Shown here piece by piece: positions 895 through 21,552 of a stretch of DNA of 23,351 nt. The position numbers were made by a program, and so were the translations under genes. The notes below the pieces were generated by a model. That model was not told the origin of the DNA. It was given only the letters and a program-made list of their open reading frames with translations, and did no database searches. The stretch lies in the IMG/VR virus record IMGVR_UViG_3300030099_001378, positions 1 to 23,351 of that record; one strand, 5' to 3'. Within the stretch, counting starts at the first letter, position 1. Each line of letters begins with the position of its first letter. The stretch is from a virus.

Positions 895-1979
895 TGGCAC
901 TACAATCAAGTGGAGCAATAAGTCTTGACGATATACATGTCGAGGTTGATGGCACATCTGGAACAACTTGTTCTATAAATGATAGTGATATTAGGGGTCT
1001 TATTGATAAAAGCTCTGGTGCTACAATGTCATTCAATGAGTGGTATGGTGCATCAAACATAGTATACATGAACGCTAGCGGTGGTTCGACCTCTACAAGT
1101 GGCAATAACAGAACTCATACATTCACAAGCTCTGGTACATTCAATGTGTCACAAGTTGCTTCTGGTGGAGCGTCAACAACTGTTACCTATTTCATTCTTG
1201 CTGGTGGAGGTGGGGGTGGAGCCGCCATCTCAAACGGTGAAGGTGCTGGCGGTGGAGGTGCTGGTGGATATAGAACTGGCACAGTCAATGTTACTTCAGG
1301 TGGGAACTATAACATTACAATCGGTGCTGGCGCTCCCTCGATAGGAGGACCAAACACCAATAATCAATACTTTAATGTAGCTTCAACTGGTGGGAACAGT
1401 TCTGCTCTAGGCGTAACATCAACTGGTGGTGGACGTGGTGGTGCCGCCTCATTTTATTCTGGCTCTGACACAAATAGCAGTAAACTTACTGGTGGACAGA
1501 ATGGCGGTTCTGGTGGAGGTGGTCACGGAAAAAATAATCAGAATCATCCTTCAGATGCCGCTGGTGGTAGCGGCACAAGTGGGCAAGGAAACAACGGAGG
1601 AACTGGTCATAATGATGCTGGTGCTGGTGGAGGTGGAGCTGGCGGTTCTGGAGGTAATGGTATCAAAGATGGCAATGGTGGTAATGGGGGCAGTGGCTCC
1701 AGCTCTGGAATAAATGACACCACAAGAGGTGGTGGGGGTGGTGGCGGATGCCGAACTGGTGATGTTGCTGGCTCTGCTGGCTCTGGTGGTGGAGGTCAGG
1801 GTGGTTCTGGCTCACACTCTTCTCAATCAAATTATCAAGAGGCATCTTCTGGTGCCGCTAATAAAGGCGGTGGCGGAGGTGGTGGAGGTGGTGGCACTTC
1901 TGGTGCCGCTGGTCGAAGAGCTGGAGCGGCTGGAGGTTCAGGCATTGTAATGTTAAGGTATCAATATCAAGGAAGCTAA
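894..1979 (+). CDS. Glycine-rich tail protein, candidate receptor-binding adhesin
   Basis: This 361-aa protein starts at a GTG that overlaps the previous stop (TAGTG), with a GAGG ribosome site about ten bases upstream. Residues 1-54 form a non-repetitive N-terminal domain (SSGAISLDDIHVEV, then FNEWYGAS) that may attach to the fibre. From about residue 104 to 351 the protein is dominated by runs of glycine broken by Ser, Asn, Thr and Ala. This resembles phage glycine-rich adhesins, such as the gp38 tip of T4-like phages, where polyglycine helices pack into a sandwich displaying variable loops. Its place directly after an S74 fibre gene supports a tip-adhesin role. The role is inferred; the glycine-rich structure is seen directly. 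Confidence 0.65.
   Translation: MALQSSGAISLDDIHVEVDGTSGTTCSINDSDIRGLIDKSSGATMSFNEWYGASNIVYMNASGGSTSTSGNNRTHTFTSSGTFNVSQVASGGASTTVTYFILAGGGGGGAAISNGEGAGGGGAGGYRTGTVNVTSGGNYNITIGAGAPSIGGPNTNNQYFNVASTGGNSSALGVTSTGGGRGGAASFYSGSDTNSSKLTGGQNGGSGGGGHGKNNQNHPSDAAGGSGTSGQGNNGGTGHNDAGAGGGGAGGSGGNGIKDGNGGNGGSGSSSGINDTTRGGGGGGGCRTGDVAGSAGSGGGGQGGSGSHSSQSNYQEASSGAANKGGGGGGGGGGTSGAAGRRAGAAGGSGIVMLRYQYQGS
1203..1945 (+). repeat. GGT/GGA/GGC glycine-codon low-complexity tract
   Basis: The tract is built from irregular blocks of glycine codons, with the longest runs near 1203-1220, 1728-1746 and 1864-1896. It is visibly richer in G than its AT-rich surroundings. Such a tract could recombine or slip to vary the number and length of glycine helices in the encoded protein. 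Confidence 0.7.
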
Positions 1980-2408
1980 ATGGGTCATTGGGCAAAAATA
2001 GATGAAAATAATATTGTGACCGAAGTTATTGTTATCAAAGAAGCAGAGCTTGATACTGGTCACTGGGGAGATAAAGCTAACTGGATAAAAACGAGTTACA
2101 ATACTTTTGAAGGTAAGCATTATAAACCCAAAGAACATCAGGATTTTACTGAGGAAAGTGCAGACCAAAGTAAAGCATTACGTTTTAGATATGCTGGTAT
2201 TGGTATGTATTATGATGCAACAAATGATGTTTTTTATGACCCAAAACCTTTTGCAAGTTGGACATTGAATAATACAACATGGGTATGGCAAGCTCCTATT
2301 GCTACTCCAACTCTAACTGAAGAACAAATGGATGAAGGAAAATACTACACTTGGGATGAAGATGCTTATCAAGCGGATAACACAAAGGGTTGGGTGCTTA
2401 CTCCTTAA
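1980..2408 (+). CDS. Small tail-associated protein of a marine-phage family
   Basis: This 142-aa protein starts directly after the previous stop (TAAATG) with an AAGGAAG ribosome site. It opens with MGHWAKID and NIVTEVIV, then has an SYNTFEGKHY segment and a Trp/Tyr-rich C-terminal half (YAGIGMYYD, then ASWTLNN, then YYTWDEDAY). This layout is familiar to me from uncharacterised virion proteins of cyanophages and pelagiphages, usually found next to tail fibre genes. No enzymatic motif, signal peptide or membrane segment is visible. From its position it may be a fibre accessory or assembly protein, but that is inference. The stop overlaps the next start by one base (TAATG). Confidence 0.6.
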   Translation: MGHWAKIDENNIVTEVIVIKEAELDTGHWGDKANWIKTSYNTFEGKHYKPKEHQDFTEESADQSKALRFRYAGIGMYYDATNDVFYDPKPFASWTLNNTTWVWQAPIATPTLTEEQMDEGKYYTWDEDAYQADNTKGWVLTP

Positions 2409-2902
2409 TGTTTGACCCAATCACCATATCAGCAAGTCTTAGCGTAGCATCTGCAGCATTTAGTAACATCAAGCGTATGTTTCAGGCAGGTAGAGACTTA
2501 GAAGCAATGTCGCAGGACTTGTCACGGTGGATGGGAGCAGTCAGTGATGTAGATAACGCACACAAGTCAGCCAAGAACCCATCAATGCTACGTAAGGTTT
2601 TTAGTGGTGGCAGTATAGAACAAGAAGCCATCGAAGCATATACTGCTAAGAAAAAGCTAGAAGAACAACGCTATGAGCTGAAGCAGTTTTTGATGTTCAC
2701 ATATGGCAGTAAGTCATGGGACGATTTACTGGCAATGGAAGGGCAGATACGCAAGAGAAGACAGAAAGAAGTATATGACAAACAAGTGTTCAGAGAGAAA
2801 GTTATAACATATGTCGTATTGGCAGTGGTTCTTGCTATTGGTACTAGTGTTCTGGGTGGGTTTGTATACGGTCTTATGGGGTTCGACAGAGGATGGTGGT
2901 AA
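2408..2902 (+). CDS. Helical protein with C-terminal membrane segment
   Basis: This 164-aa protein of unknown function starts at the ATG overlapping the previous stop (TAATG). The first ~130 residues are charged and helical, including FSGGSIEQEA and a Lys/Glu/Arg-rich stretch around residues 80-125. Residues ~132-157 (VITYVVLAVVLAIGTSV and onward) form one clear transmembrane helix, leaving a seven-residue tail ending GWW. I recall similar sequences in marine podoviruses next to tail genes, without a known role. Its last 92 bases also code in another frame for the start of the next gene, so both membrane segments come from the same DNA. Candidate roles are an inner-membrane late protein or an infection-complex anchor. 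Confidence 0.6.
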   Translation: MFDPITISASLSVASAAFSNIKRMFQAGRDLEAMSQDLSRWMGAVSDVDNAHKSAKNPSMLRKVFSGGSIEQEAIEAYTAKKKLEEQRYELKQFLMFTYGSKSWDDLLAMEGQIRKRRQKEVYDKQVFREKVITYVVLAVVLAIGTSVLGGFVYGLMGFDRGWW

Positions 2903-3281
2903 CTGCGTAAGAAAAGATGGTGGACAGTACACATTTGAGTGGCTTTGTGCAGACAATTATGGTATAATAACTTTAGCACAATCTGATAACATTAAACAAT
3001 GTTACACCTGCTTCCTCAAAAAGTTTAGTGACTGGACATGGGAACAAGAAAAACGTCTTGGCATAAGAGAAGACCCAAAGTATATCACATGCCGTAGATA
3101 CAAAAGAGTGCAAGCCAAGAACGGACAACAGGTCTGTTTATACAAAGGAGCAAACGATACATATACGCTAGTGGTTGAAGGAAACTGCCCCTCAGAGTAT
3201 CGTTGCAAGTATGATCCTTTCGGTAAAGAGCCTAATATAGACAGCGTAGTTGACTCACTCAACGATAAGTTTAAGAGGTAA
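2811..3281 (+). CDS. Eight-cysteine protein with N-terminal membrane anchor
   Basis: This 156-aa protein begins inside the previous gene in another reading frame, with a 92-base overlap. Residues 5-23 form a hydrophobic signal-anchor (WQWFLLLVLVFWVGLY), with no obvious signal-peptidase or lipoprotein site. The remainder is hydrophilic with eight cysteines (32, 46, 64, 67, 94, 109, 126, 132), an even number that suits disulfide bonding outside the cytoplasm. No strong ribosome site precedes the ATG at 2811, so translation may depend on the overlapping gene. I do not recognise the family. It could belong to lysis, superinfection exclusion or the envelope-spanning entry path. The coding frame looks real because it stays open to a tight junction with the next gene. 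Confidence 0.6.
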   Translation: MSYWQWFLLLVLVFWVGLYTVLWGSTEDGGNCVRKDGGQYTFEWLCADNYGIITLAQSDNIKQCYTCFLKKFSDWTWEQEKRLGIREDPKYITCRRYKRVQAKNGQQVCLYKGANDTYTLVVEGNCPSEYRCKYDPFGKEPNIDSVVDSLNDKFKR

Positions 3282-3282
3282 C

Positions 3283-3519
3283 ATGGAAATAGATCCAGTA
3301 ATATTTTGGAATGTAGTGCTAACCCTTATCATAGCTCCTGCTGTGTGGGCATTTAGGAACATGATGGCAGAGCTAAAGCGTATCGACATCCTGTTAAATA
3401 GAACAAGAGAGGACTACGCATCTAGGGCAGAAGTCAAAGACGAGATGCAACATGTTATGGACGCACTGCACAGATTAGAGGATAAATTAGATAGAGTGTT
3501 GAGTAGGGATATTAAATGA
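3283..3519 (+). CDS. Short membrane-anchored coiled-coil protein
   Basis: This 78-aa protein starts at the ATG with a GAGGT ribosome site just upstream (AAGAGGTAACATG), which I prefer to an upstream in-frame start. Residues 6-24 are a transmembrane helix (VIFWNVVLTLIIAPAVWAF). The rest is a charged helix with heptad-like spacing (RIDILLNRTREDY, then MDALHRLEDKLDRVL). One anchor plus a coiled coil fits an inner-membrane spanin-like or holin-associated protein, but also a small virion or entry protein. I recall near-identical short proteins in marine phages with no known function. The stop overlaps the next start (AATGATG). Confidence 0.6.
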   Translation: MEIDPVIFWNVVLTLIIAPAVWAFRNMMAELKRIDILLNRTREDYASRAEVKDEMQHVMDALHRLEDKLDRVLSRDIK

Positions 3520-16769: not shown

Positions 16770-17651
16770 CTACTCGTCCTCAATCTCAACAATAGAAGAC
16801 ACAATCTCCTCGTCTGCTTCAGACAACTCCTCTGGTCTTCTGTTCTCTTCCCACTTAGAAAGAGTGATTGAGTTCATAGATTCAACCCACTCGACAAAGC
16901 TATTCAGTGTCTCTTGATCGTCAGCAGTAATCTCTACTTCACTACCCAGAGATGCTTTCACTACTGCGTAAGTAGCACCACTAGGGATACTCTTTAATTC
17001 GCTAGACAAAACAAGATTGTGCTGTATAGGAAGTCGGTTCTTCCGTTGTATCGCATTGAAGATATCGTTCATAGCCTTGAAGCTATCTCTATTCTTAATA
17101 CGCATAAAGAAAGGGAACTCTTTAACATCAACAGATTTACCGTTAGCATCCTTAGCGTTGTCAAGTGTACACAGTCCAAACACAATCTTGTACCGCTTGG
17201 TACTTTTCATGATGTCCTGCGTTTCTTGTGGCAAAGACGAAAAGTCTTTGACATAACCAGAAGGTCTACCGCAGTTGAAACCTCCATAGTTATCCTTTAA
17301 GTCCACACTGAGAGACTTGCCCATGACAGATCGGAGCATCCTTCCAGAGCCACCGTCAGGTCTGGTAAAGTTGTCGTCCCATCTTTCCCACTGAAACCTT
17401 TGCATGAAGGTTCTGATGGTGATCTTGTCACTGTAATACACAGTCTCGTCAGGGAACACTACTGAATAAGAACCTGCTTTTATCACAGCTACTTCCATCT
17501 TCTCTCCATCAACTTCCTTAGTACCCATGATGTTCTGGTGTACCTGCTTGATCTCTGCAAGAGCAGAGCGAGATGATGGAACAGTGTTGGACATACCCAT
17601 GATGTCTGCTAGGTTTTCTTTTGTTCCGATAATAGCTAAATTGTTTTCCAT
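16770..17651 (-). CDS. Putative single-stranded DNA-binding protein
   Basis: This 293-aa protein lies directly downstream of the DNA polymerase and upstream of the recombination nucleases, where many T7-like phages keep their SSB. A ribosome site (AAGGAG) sits ten bases before the ATG. The body has mixed strands with aromatic and basic residues (TFMQRFQWERWDDNF, then RYKIVFGLC), and the protein ends in an acidic tail (DEEIVSSIVEIEDE). Acidic tails in phage SSBs such as T7 gp2.5 contact polymerase and helicase. No OB-fold signature can be confirmed by eye, so the call rests on tail, size and context. Some marine phage proteins of this type are annotated as SSB, as I recall. Confidence 0.55.
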   Translation of the reverse strand: MENNLAIIGTKENLADIMGMSNTVPSSRSALAEIKQVHQNIMGTKEVDGEKMEVAVIKAGSYSVVFPDETVYYSDKITIRTFMQRFQWERWDDNFTRPDGGSGRMLRSVMGKSLSVDLKDNYGGFNCGRPSGYVKDFSSLPQETQDIMKSTKRYKIVFGLCTLDNAKDANGKSVDVKEFPFFMRIKNRDSFKAMNDIFNAIQRKNRLPIQHNLVLSSELKSIPSGATYAVVKASLGSEVEITADDQETLNSFVEWVESMNSITLSKWEENRRPEELSEADEEIVSSIVEIEDE

Positions 17652-17688: not shown

Positions 17689-19761
17689 CTACATAACGTC
17701 CTTGGTGTCAAGCCAATTATTTCCTATCTTAGCTTCAAGCACCATTGGTACATTTATGGTAACATCATAGTAGTCTTTTATGATGTCAATTAGGTTGTCA
17801 TTTACATCTTTTATGATGCGAATAACTTGCTCTTCTTCTGCAGGGTGTACGTCAATAACAACGGAGTCATGCACCGTATTGACAAGACAAGACTGCATAC
17901 TCTCTAACTTCTTGTCTATCTCCAGAAATACTATGGGGACAATATCCCCAGTAGCAAATCCCTGCACTGGATAATTCTTTATCATGGTAAAGTGTGTGGG
18001 CGAGCCACTAGCTCTACGCTCTACGTCTGGAAAAGCGTACTGTCGCCCCGATGGTATCATGATGTAGCCATCGTTCAACGCTTGATCTCCTAGACGCTTG
18101 TGCCACTTTGCAATACCTCTGTACTTGTCCATAAAATGTGTATAATACTCTGCCTCAGCTTTTGTCCTGCCAAAGCCAGTAGCACCGTACAGAGGAGCAA
18201 AGGTGTGTGCCTTAGCATCTTGTCGTGTTGTTGGCTGTCCTGCGTCAGATATAATATTTGCAGTGTAAGAGTGAACATCAAAGCCAGTGCTGACCTCTTC
18301 CATCGCAACTTTGTCCTGCGATAAAAATGCTGCAACTCTAAACTCTAGCTGTGCAAAGTCTGCTTCTATTATCTTACCACCATCCCAACGTGACACAAAT
18401 ACTTTCTTAACTGGAAACGTACCGCCCCTTGGCATATTTTGCATATTAGGATTGCGTCCACTGAAACGTCCAGTAGCTGTGACATGCTGAGTGAGAGACA
18501 CATGTAGCTTTCCGTCTGGCTTTGTGTATGCCTCTATACCCTCAACAAAAGAAGATAGATAACTAGACACAGCACTTTGTCTCTTGAGGTCACTGAGAAA
18601 GTTCTCTGCATCTGTCATACCCTTTGACTTAGATAGGTTTATCAGTGTCTCCAGATTGCCTTTGCTTGTGGAGAAACCATTAGCACTGACCCAATCCTTT
18701 GACAAAGGGAAGAACCCAAGACCTGCCATCTGATTTGACTTGGCAAGTTTGTACCCTCTGGTGTCACATTCGGGGCAACGATTGGGTTTGAGAAACGGTG
18801 TCCCATCCTTCTTGGTCTTGAAAACTTTACCCTTACCATTACAAGCATCACATATACTTGCTTTAGTTTTCACCATTAAGCTACTGTTTTCTTTGACTGT
18901 TTTGCGAAAGTCGTCCTTGTCAACAACATTCTCGAAAGCTAATGCCCACTCTTTTTTGTTCTTGACAATCCTAGAAAAGATAACCTGACTGACCTGTTCT
19001 GGTGAGTTGAGGTTGATAGGTGTGTCCCCCATTAGTCTCTTCACATGCTCCTGCAACCGCCCCTCTATCTCGTTTAGTTCCTGAACAAAGTCTTTCTTCA
19101 CTTGAGCCAGAGCATCTCTGTCTATGGCAATACCTTTCATGTACATCTTAGTCAGTGCTTTACACACTTTGTTGGTCACATCACGAACCGTGATGAGAGA
19201 CTTGGACTCATCTTTTCCATACTCGTCTTCTAGTCTCATGTATAACTGCTTAGTAACCGCTAAGTCCTGCCGTAAATACTCTGACAACTCGTCAAGAGGT
19301 ATTTCATCCGTTTGAAACCCTCTCCTGAAGTAATCTTTTAGTGTATCTGACTTCTTTACGTCAAGACCGTACCTCTCAGCGCAGTTTTCAAGGCTGACAG
19401 AGCCTTTTTGCCCTCTCTGTAGTATGTATGCACCCAACATTGTGTCGTATATCTCGCCATCGTATCTAAAACCGCACTCCCAAAGCCACTGTAGATCATA
19501 CTGAAGGTTGTGTCCTATCAATAATGTGGTGTTGTCAAGTATTCTTTGCAATCTTTTGTCTGCATCATCGTCTGTTATAACTCTTTCTTTATGGTCAAAC
19601 ACAAAAACAGTTGACTTATCCGTTCCCCAAAGAGGACTTGTAAAATGGAAACTCTCAACACCCACGAGCGTCAAAGAATTGTCAGGCTCAAAAGGGTCAA
19701 GATGTAACTTACCATCTCGTTTAGTCGTTGTGTTTTCTACGTCTAATATAATCTTATTCAT
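17689..19761 (-). CDS. polA: Family A DNA polymerase with proofreading domain and DnaJ-like zinc finger
   Basis: This 690-aa replicative polymerase has an intact 3'-5' exonuclease (Asp7-Val-Glu9, Asn85 with Asp89, Tyr162 with Asp166). The polymerase motifs are A, EADFAQLEFR (Asp468, Glu473); B, Arg513/Lys517/Phe521/Tyr525-Gly; and C, VHDSV (Asp632). Between the thumb helix (NLNSPEQVSQVIF, ~250-262) and the palm-side sequences lies CDACNGKGKV (Cys304, 307) and CPECDTRGYK (Cys329, 332), a DnaJ-style CxxCxGxG zinc centre. I recall this insertion from the SAR116 phage HMO-2011 polymerase. Position 521 equals E. coli Phe762. The start overlaps the helicase stop (ATGA), so both are made together. 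The enzyme class is certain; the role of the zinc finger is unknown. Confidence 0.96.
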   Translation of the reverse strand: MNKIILDVENTTTKRDGKLHLDPFEPDNSLTLVGVESFHFTSPLWGTDKSTVFVFDHKERVITDDDADKRLQRILDNTTLLIGHNLQYDLQWLWECGFRYDGEIYDTMLGAYILQRGQKGSVSLENCAERYGLDVKKSDTLKDYFRRGFQTDEIPLDELSEYLRQDLAVTKQLYMRLEDEYGKDESKSLITVRDVTNKVCKALTKMYMKGIAIDRDALAQVKKDFVQELNEIEGRLQEHVKRLMGDTPINLNSPEQVSQVIFSRIVKNKKEWALAFENVVDKDDFRKTVKENSSLMVKTKASICDACNGKGKVFKTKKDGTPFLKPNRCPECDTRGYKLAKSNQMAGLGFFPLSKDWVSANGFSTSKGNLETLINLSKSKGMTDAENFLSDLKRQSAVSSYLSSFVEGIEAYTKPDGKLHVSLTQHVTATGRFSGRNPNMQNMPRGGTFPVKKVFVSRWDGGKIIEADFAQLEFRVAAFLSQDKVAMEEVSTGFDVHSYTANIISDAGQPTTRQDAKAHTFAPLYGATGFGRTKAEAEYYTHFMDKYRGIAKWHKRLGDQALNDGYIMIPSGRQYAFPDVERRASGSPTHFTMIKNYPVQGFATGDIVPIVFLEIDKKLESMQSCLVNTVHDSVVIDVHPAEEEQVIRIIKDVNDNLIDIIKDYYDVTINVPMVLEAKIGNNWLDTKDVM

Positions 19762-20993
19762 GCAGTATATCTACCTCTCTCTACATCTAACTCAACATGG
19801 ATCTTTCCATGCCATCCGTTTATCTTGTTTTTTGCTATGATAATGTGTCGCTGTGTATCATTATCTTCTTGCCCCTCAATAGTTGGGTTCTTACTGAGTA
19901 ACAACATCAAATCTGCTTCTGCTGCCTTACCAGTCTTACTACCCTCAAGCATAGATTGATCTACATTGACCTTACCTTCTGCCTCAGCAGATAGCTGAGA
20001 CATCCAGATTATAGCACAATCATACTCTTTTGCGATGTTTCTCGCGTGAATTGCCGCCTCTTTCAAGTATAAGTCCATCCTTTCTCCAGTTCTGTTGGCA
20101 AACTTGTCGCCCATATCTAGCACAACAATGTCGGGTCTTTCAACCTTTATCATGTTCTCTACCCAATCCATCTTCTTGCCAGTAACATCCTTAATCTTGA
20201 CGCTCTGTCTAATCTTGTTGTACCTATCCATAGCTAGTGCATGATTAGCTCTACCGCTACCTATCTCTGCCAACGACAACTCTGCTCTATTACAAAGGTA
20301 ACGAGATGCGACTCTATAGTACGGCTCTTCATTACACAAGACTCGACACTTAGCACCTTGATCTATAAAGCCACCTCTTGATGCGATGATACTAGCGTGA
20401 AAACTTGTCTTACCAGTGTTGGGTCTTGCACCCACTATGATAAGCTGACCACCGCTTATGCCCTGAAGTCGCCTAGCGAGAGAGGGTATATTAAACTTCC
20501 ACTTTGACTTTTGATTAGCTTGCTCTAATATGCTGTCAAAACTTATGTCATCCCACTCTATCTTGAAGTTGGGTAGGAAGTTATCTTGATGATCGCTGAT
20601 AATCTTGCGTAACGGCTCTAACGTAGAACCCTCACCATTAACATAATCAAACCCTATGTTGGCTACCTTCTCTCCCACATGCTGTTGAAATAACTTAGAG
20701 AGTACATCTTTAGCTATTTCTTTGTCCATAGCTTGCTCTCTTTCTAATTTAGAAAACAACTCTTTGAACATCTGCTTAGATGATGTGGTGAGGGTGCTAT
20801 TGTGAGCAAAGAACAAACCTTCTAACTCACGCACAGTGATACTGTCCTTACCATAGTTCTGCATGGCAAAGTCTACAGTTTTCTTTATCTTACGTACATC
20901 TTTACTAAATAATTCATCAGGGCATCTAGTACCCTTATGATCTCCGTAGAAGTCTTTATCTAGCAGACTTCTTATTAGTGCTAACTCCACCAT
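19758..20993 (-). CDS. DnaB-type replicative helicase (unfused)
   Basis: This 411-aa ring helicase of the DnaB/T7 gp4 superfamily unwinds DNA ahead of the polymerase. Residues ~1-135 resemble a DnaB-like helical N-terminal domain. The RecA-type core follows: Walker A GARPNTGKTS (Lys195, Thr196), a catalytic-Glu strand near CNEEP (222-223), Walker B DIVVLD (Asp293), and IIWMSQL (Gln333), the H3 sensor. IIIAKNKINGWHGKI is the C-terminal H4-like segment. AGGAG lies seven bases before the ATG. The first 38 bases overlap the GIY-YIG gene. Unlike T7 gp4, the primase is a separate gene two positions upstream. Confidence 0.93.
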   Translation of the reverse strand: MVELALIRSLLDKDFYGDHKGTRCPDELFSKDVRKIKKTVDFAMQNYGKDSITVRELEGLFFAHNSTLTTSSKQMFKELFSKLEREQAMDKEIAKDVLSKLFQQHVGEKVANIGFDYVNGEGSTLEPLRKIISDHQDNFLPNFKIEWDDISFDSILEQANQKSKWKFNIPSLARRLQGISGGQLIIVGARPNTGKTSFHASIIASRGGFIDQGAKCRVLCNEEPYYRVASRYLCNRAELSLAEIGSGRANHALAMDRYNKIRQSVKIKDVTGKKMDWVENMIKVERPDIVVLDMGDKFANRTGERMDLYLKEAAIHARNIAKEYDCAIIWMSQLSAEAEGKVNVDQSMLEGSKTGKAAEADLMLLLSKNPTIEGQEDNDTQRHIIIAKNKINGWHGKIHVELDVERGRYTA

Positions 20994-21552
20994 TCATCTT
21001 CTCCTCTGTAAGTGTCTTTACCAAACTCAAGAACTTATCAAAGTCCTCACTGTCTAAGTTCTCTATACGAAACCACTCGTTACTTCTTTCTCTACTCATG
21101 CCCTCTGCTAAAGTGTGTGCTATTTTCTCTCCTATACCTCTATTAGACACGCTGATCTTTGATACTATACTGTAGTCTCTGTGAGGACTGCTTGTTTGAT
21201 AGCCATTACATCTGTCCTCTGCGTCTACCGCTTTACCTATCTTGTACCAACTTTTCCAAGCAGGGTTGCTAATAATATACACCTCTCCTTTAACACATTT
21301 CACATAATTAATCAAGGAAGAAAAAGCAGCATCACTAAATGTTTTGAATCTTCCCGGTTTGTACAAAGGGTGTTTACTCGATATGTACTTGCCGTTTACG
21401 TACATTCTTAGTTTATTGTTTTTCTCATTTATTTCTTCTTGATTGACGCAAGAACACTTCTTACACCTATAGTGACGACCACGCTCAGACGATTCATACC
21501 AATTTTTAGTAACGTCTAACTCCACTCCACAGTCCATGCAATGTTTAGCCAT
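20956..21552 (-). CDS. Zinc-finger plus GIY-YIG (T5orf172-like) endonuclease
   Basis: This 198-aa protein combines an N-terminal zinc-binding unit (Cys5-x2-Cys8, then Cys30-x2-Cys33) with a C-terminal GIY-YIG-like domain of the T5orf172/MUG113 type. The latter shows VYIIS (90-95), WYKIGKA (102-108), Arg114 as the likely catalytic Arg, GEKIAHTLAE with Glu142, and the closing NEWF at 159-161. The fold cuts DNA in homing and repair enzymes. The gene overlaps the primase by 8 bases and the helicase by 38, and has its own GAGGAG ribosome site, so it is a built-in operon member rather than an intron-borne guest. The substrate is unknown: a repair nuclease, homing remnant or host-DNA attack enzyme are all possible. 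Confidence 0.75.
   Translation of the reverse strand: MAKHCMDCGVELDVTKNWYESSERGRHYRCKKCSCVNQEEINEKNNKLRMYVNGKYISSKHPLYKPGRFKTFSDAAFSSLINYVKCVKGEVYIISNPAWKSWYKIGKAVDAEDRCNGYQTSSPHRDYSIVSKISVSNRGIGEKIAHTLAEGMSRERSNEWFRIENLDSEDFDKFLSLVKTLTEEKMNGGVSTNKKSAR

Follow-up and report, generated by a model that had tools for sequence, protein, structure and literature searches.

What does a DnaJ-like zinc module do in the polymerase of a marine phage? The question is raised by a 23,351-nucleotide stretch of viral DNA (hereafter the window; IMG/VR record IMGVR_UViG_3300030099_001378, positions 1 to 23,351), in which a 690-residue ORF matches Pfam DNA_pol_A at 3.2e-53 and the 3′–5′ exonuclease family DNA_pol_A_exo1 at 2e-9. 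The nearest polymerases from isolates, which span 57–62 % identity, are those of the Roseobacter phages CRP-603 (62 %) and CRP-2 and of the SAR116 phage HMO-2011 (57.5 %), and in a polymerase tree the window enzyme falls inside the HMO-2011-type clade. Judged by its sequence, it is an HMO-2011-type marine phage DNA polymerase, homologous to the enzymes of these isolates. The 23-kb record carries the replication module of this group (compare CRP-603), with genes encoding integrase, primase, DnaB-like helicase, polymerase, a protein of unknown function, Cas4-like exonuclease, endonuclease I and ribonucleotide reductase. Between the primase and helicase genes the window also has a T5orf172/MUG113 (GIY-YIG-like) gene (20956–21552, minus strand), the product of which bears an N-terminal cysteine motif, CMDC..CKKC, while a putative HNH endonuclease is encoded at another place in the CRP-603 module.

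The presence of the zinc module in such polymerases is already known. A 'partial DnaJ central domain' is the published diagnostic feature of the HMO-2011 type, and the statement in the initial annotation that a partial DnaJ domain had been noted in the HMO-2011 polymerase is borne out by the same papers (PMC9038755, PMC6918029, PMC8528129). These polymerases belong to the same family as the window enzyme and share its two-motif zinc insert. The published descriptions place the module between the exonuclease and polymerase domains and give both motifs as CXXCXGXG, whereas the present analysis puts the module in the H1–H2 loop of the thumb tip, and the second motif in the window reads CxxCxxxG. 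No functional study of the module was found in the literature searched, which covers few subscription papers. As far as these papers show, the thumb-tip placement, the quantified conservation and charge, the restriction to one clade and the comparison with inserts that lack zinc cysteines at the same site in other phages are new.

Table 1. Features of the polymerase gene, its thumb and the adjacent gene (window coordinates; residues are those of the polymerase)
Feature	Residues	Position	Strand	Basis
Family A DNA polymerase gene (exonuclease + polymerase), 690 aa		17689-19761	-	Pfam, model
Thumb helix H	215-244	19030..19119	-	AlphaFold model
Thumb helix H1 segment LNSPEQVSQVIFS	251-263 (helix 254-262)	18973..19011	-	model; aligns with E. 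coli FNLSSTKQLQTILFEK
Thumb-tip insert, between H1 and H2	264-363	18673..18972	-	alignments, model
Stalk strand 1	297-303	18853..18873	-	model
Zinc module, two CxxC knuckles flanking a basic hairpin	304-336	18754..18852	-	conservation, charge, PF00684 likeness
First knuckle CDACNGKG	304-311	18829..18852	-	translation, alignment
Second knuckle CPECDTRG	329-336	18754..18777	-	translation, alignment
Stalk strand 2	337-345	18727..18753	-	model
Thumb helix H2	367-379	18625..18663	-	model
Next gene downstream of the polymerase; its 293-aa product, a candidate partner, ends in an acidic tail		16770..17651	-	charge count

The stretch to which the initial annotation had drawn attention, 18750–18870, corresponds to residues 298 to 338. 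The two CxxC half-sites that it described there are present in the translation as C304/C307 and C329/C332, and G309, G311 and G336 do occupy DnaJ-like positions. The enzyme thereby shows the two CXXCXGXG-like motifs by which HMO-2011-type polymerases are recognized, the second without glycine at its sixth position, which is threonine 334; glycine is found at this position in 65 of 108 non-redundant sequences and is absent, as in the window, from the other 43. When the protein was shuffled 20,000 times, the pattern CxxCxGxG(10–40)CxxCxxxG did not arise once. None of the 254 full-length sequences (the window polymerase and its relatives from IMG/VR) lacks either cysteine pair, and the 108 non-redundant sequences show no variation at C304, C307, C329, C332, G309 and G336 and almost none at G311. 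The knuckles are separated by 21 residues in 187 of the 254 sequences and by 33–34 in the remainder, indicating a hairpin of variable length between constant knuckles. Four cysteines kept together in two CxxC pairs fit the pattern of a structural zinc knuckle, and their invariance and the predicted fold suggest that the module binds one Zn2+ through all four.

The likeness to DnaJ is recognizable at the level of a single knuckle. The Pfam family DnaJ_CXXCXGXG (PF00684) matches the whole protein with E 6.4e-4 and 20.4 bits, below the gathering cut-off of 32.7 bits, and the insert alone with 24.8 bits, likewise below it; across the group, 84 of 88 inserts are matched at E ≤ 0.01. By profile, the best solved relative is the cysteine-rich domain of E. 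coli DnaJ, motifs 2–3 (E 0.0047), with the phage antiterminator Q next at E 0.16. Modelled by itself (pLDDT 86), the insert is most similar to DnaJA2, BSD2, the UvrA zinc module, anti-TRAP and DNA-bound lambda Q, with modest Z scores of 3.4–4.7. These profile and fold matches make the insert look like a single DnaJ zinc knuckle. It has in common with the DnaJ/Hsp40 domain the glycine-rich CxxC knuckles and a similar predicted fold, but that domain has four CxxCxGxG motifs and two zinc sites, whereas the insert has two motifs, enough for one zinc, and resides in a polymerase. A Pfam scan of the polymerase gave no match to a J-domain family with its HPD motif. The insert is not a DnaJ, as it lacks the J domain and has only two of the four motifs. 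A lone zinc knuckle of the DnaJ kind, with a comparable fold, is present in lambda Q, UvrA, anti-TRAP and BSD2 (Z 3.4–4.1), although the proteins and their contexts differ; lambda Q and UvrA bind DNA. The structural scores against the insert are modest, and a common origin with it would be conjectural.

The placement of the module is given by a full-length AlphaFold model with a mean pLDDT of 91 and blocks of 85–95 across the insert, which matches bacterial Pol I large fragments at Z of about 33. T7 polymerase was absent among the best 50 structural matches listed, which is uninformative about the T7 polymerase fold. The module had initially been placed between the first thumb helix and the palm; according to the model, the insertion instead lies within the thumb, at its tip, since H2 and the long helix I (residues 383–412) follow the insert before the palm is reached. 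In the alignment, the insert of about 100 residues takes the place of E. coli PolA 594–607. It is modelled as two short helices and two strands, the strands forming a stalk that is capped by the zinc module.

The initial statement that T7 polymerase carries its thioredoxin-binding domain (TBD) at another point of the thumb proved correct. The TBD of T7, at about 263–333, ends directly before the T7 H1 sequence FNPSS, so the TBD precedes H1 and the zinc insert follows it, the two flanking the same helix on opposite sides. Both are thumb inserts adjoining H1 in phage family A polymerases and both are lysine-rich, but the TBD of T7 gp5 lies between H and H1 and has no zinc cysteine pairs. The profile of the zinc core scored 13.0 against that of the TBD in hhalign, compared with a mean of 9.5 for column-permuted profiles, 5 of 60 of which scored as high; the two are therefore not clearly related by profile, and for this reason host thioredoxin as a partner of the zinc module appears to be without support.

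The zinc core is strongly basic: its 41 residues have a mean net charge of +7, which 0.8 % of the other stretches of these proteins attain. At least 99 % of sequences have lysine or arginine at positions 269, 298, 315 and 317, and 93 % have one of the two at position 328, and the core is free of any acidic column conserved at 90 % or more. Compared with the rest of the enzyme, the enrichment in conserved Lys/Arg columns is modest (p = 0.046 at the 90 % level and 0.13 at 95 %).

The deletion studied by Minnick and co-workers in the thumb of E. coli Pol I reportedly covered residues 590–613 and thus the H1–H2 loop. According to Minnick et al. (1996, as cited in PMC10061031), a Klenow fragment with a truncated thumb has a lower affinity for DNA and is less processive, which is why the placement of the insert at the thumb tip matters. 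Processivity, contact with the duplex or lesion bypass has been tied to thumb inserts of Pol theta and of plant organellar polymerases (PMC11080051, PMC7699545). Like the zinc insert, Pol theta insert 1 and the plant organellar Pol I inserts are lineage-specific additions to a family A thumb, but they contain no zinc, and the comparison is made at the level of the thumb region. Taken with the basic core and its conserved Lys/Arg positions, these precedents favour a zinc-stiffened DNA grip. The earlier suggestion of an independent processivity or partner-binding device is plausible, and the site, the strict conservation and the basic charge favour DNA gripping.

We are modestly inclined to regard the insert as a zinc-stapled DNA grip that would make the enzyme more processive with no need for a thioredoxin-type cofactor. 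The sequence and its conservation, the predicted fold, the position and the grouping in one clade are observed, whereas we infer that the module binds zinc, touches DNA and affects processivity. A DnaJ-type knuckle holding a single zinc would sit on a two-stranded stalk in place of the short H1–H2 loop, and the four cysteines would hold one Zn2+ and so stiffen the hairpin. The conserved lysine and arginine residues could then touch the backbone of the newly formed primer–template duplex, or the adjacent single strand, which would slow dissociation and provide a built-in grip. Among the closest solved folds are not only chaperones but also nucleic-acid binders that share the knuckle, namely UvrA and lambda Q, the latter bound to its DNA site. 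Against such a grip, the enrichment in conserved Lys/Arg columns is modest, the knuckle fold is also used for protein–protein contacts, as in DnaJ, anti-TRAP and BSD2, and a point mutation in Pol theta insert 1 left DNA binding unaltered (PMC11080051). Thumb-tip placement turns the 'partial DnaJ domain' annotation into a concrete and cheaply testable hypothesis, and if the grip is real, a zinc-based route to a processive family A polymerase would be added.

Contact with a protein rather than with DNA is the chief alternative, in which the basic face of the knuckle would, by analogy with the T7 TBD and SSB, dock the acidic C-terminal tail of a candidate SSB encoded directly downstream, or else the helicase or primase. 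The downstream gene is conserved in the HMO-type phages examined, and the tail of its product is acidic in all five phages checked (net charge −10 in the window and −3 to −10 in four relatives). T7 SSB uses its C-terminal tail to bind the TBD (PMC7699545), which sits across the same helix, and an SSB contact at the thumb tip has been predicted for another family A polymerase (PMC10061031). The downstream protein, however, has no recognizable relative in Pfam, PHROGs or the PDB, so that it is an SSB candidate only; the C-terminus of the helicase is not acidic. Docking is rated less likely than a DNA grip, and the two do not exclude each other.

It is improbable that the zinc site is purely structural, serving to hold a long loop in shape and contributing little to the binding of DNA or a partner. 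Glycine-rich CxxC knuckles are typical of structural zinc sites, many phage polymerases have long non-zinc inserts at the same point and the Stenotrophomonas phage polymerase StenR_269 manages with 23 residues, but polymerases only about 35 % identical still share the four cysteines and the Lys/Arg positions, which would be needless for a spacer. Still harder to credit is a redox switch responsive to thioredoxin or glutaredoxin, or recruitment of the host DnaK chaperone system, to which we attach very little weight. CxxC pairs are capable of redox activity, CRP-603 encodes a glutaredoxin and a published description of these polymerases points to the part played by DnaJ in lambda replication (PMC9038755). 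The CRP-603 glutaredoxin, however, adjoins ribonucleotide reductase, its likelier client, the DnaK-binding J domain is missing and the unclear profile relation to the T7 TBD also speaks against this alternative.

Mapping of the insertion on a polymerase tree of 39 rows, as the initial annotation had proposed, was carried out with the insert removed beforehand, and all zinc-bearing sequences form one group that is explained by one change (support 88/82). Next to this group lie two polymerases that lack the cysteine pairs, StenR_269 (a loop of 23 residues) and L382 (82 residues), although the order of the outgroups is unsure because of long branches. Outside HMO-type polymerases, tblastn gave no convincing match to the module in 50,697 phage records, and a tblastn search with the insert found none in 72,556 plasmid records; lambdoid Q proteins matched the insert at E 1 or worse. 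Scans with the polymerases of Vibrio K437 and Alcaligenes QDWS535 yielded nothing usable. Two divergent zinc-bearing polymerases widen the group, namely L383, from a marine viral contig, which branches near pelagiphage HTVC033P, and L304, from a single-cell alphaproteobacterial assembly.

Many other phage polymerases (Zobellviridae, Percy-like and related) have thumb-tip inserts of 47–140 residues at the same H1–H2 point, but without cysteines. A lysine-rich hairpin, (F/Y)K(S/T)GKxxGExKxK, recurs in them (L305-L384, L086 and L092-L097, thumb region), and the short (47–62 residues) and long (88–145 residues) classes are related to each other by profile (E 1e-7). By eye, KKDGTPRTK in L384 resembles KKDGTPFLK in the window polymerase. 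Derivation of the zinc insert from this hairpin, or from the T7 TBD, by zinc stapling found no support, because column-permuted nulls were not beaten: permuted profiles scored as high or higher in 46 of 60 and 12 of 60 cases for the non-zinc classes, beside the 5 of 60 for the TBD, whereas the positive control, one non-zinc class against the other, gave E 1e-7. The economical reading of these profiles would be one insertion site with several independent inserts, and a common origin of the zinc and non-zinc inserts too ancient for detection is possible.

HMO-2011-type phages are reported to be dominant and widely distributed in the ocean (PMC9038755). With more reserve than for the grip itself, it may be proposed that these abundant phages evolved a zinc-stapled thumb clamp that affords processivity without thioredoxin or sliding clamps, that this clamp arose separately from the T7 TBD and the non-zinc inserts, and that the H1–H2 loop has repeatedly been used for such devices.

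Several further observations were made on the polymerases compared. StenR_269, the nearest polymerase outside the zinc-bearing group, has a thioredoxin-domain gene two genes upstream (L085:1035-1301; polymerase 1501-3345). HMO-type polymerases also occur on GTDB MAG contigs labelled Euryarchaeota, Flavobacteriales or Neomarinimicrobiota (L296-L302); contigs of identical length (62,825 and 55,371 bp) recur in two different MAGs, which suggests that phage contigs were binned wrongly. The polymerase of several phages, and of many viral contigs from the sea, is split into an exonuclease and thumb ORF and a separate palm and fingers ORF, sometimes with a small ORF between them (for example L086:1501-3612, L096:483-2398 and L093:459-2552, and ORFs of about 390 residues in L360-L381).
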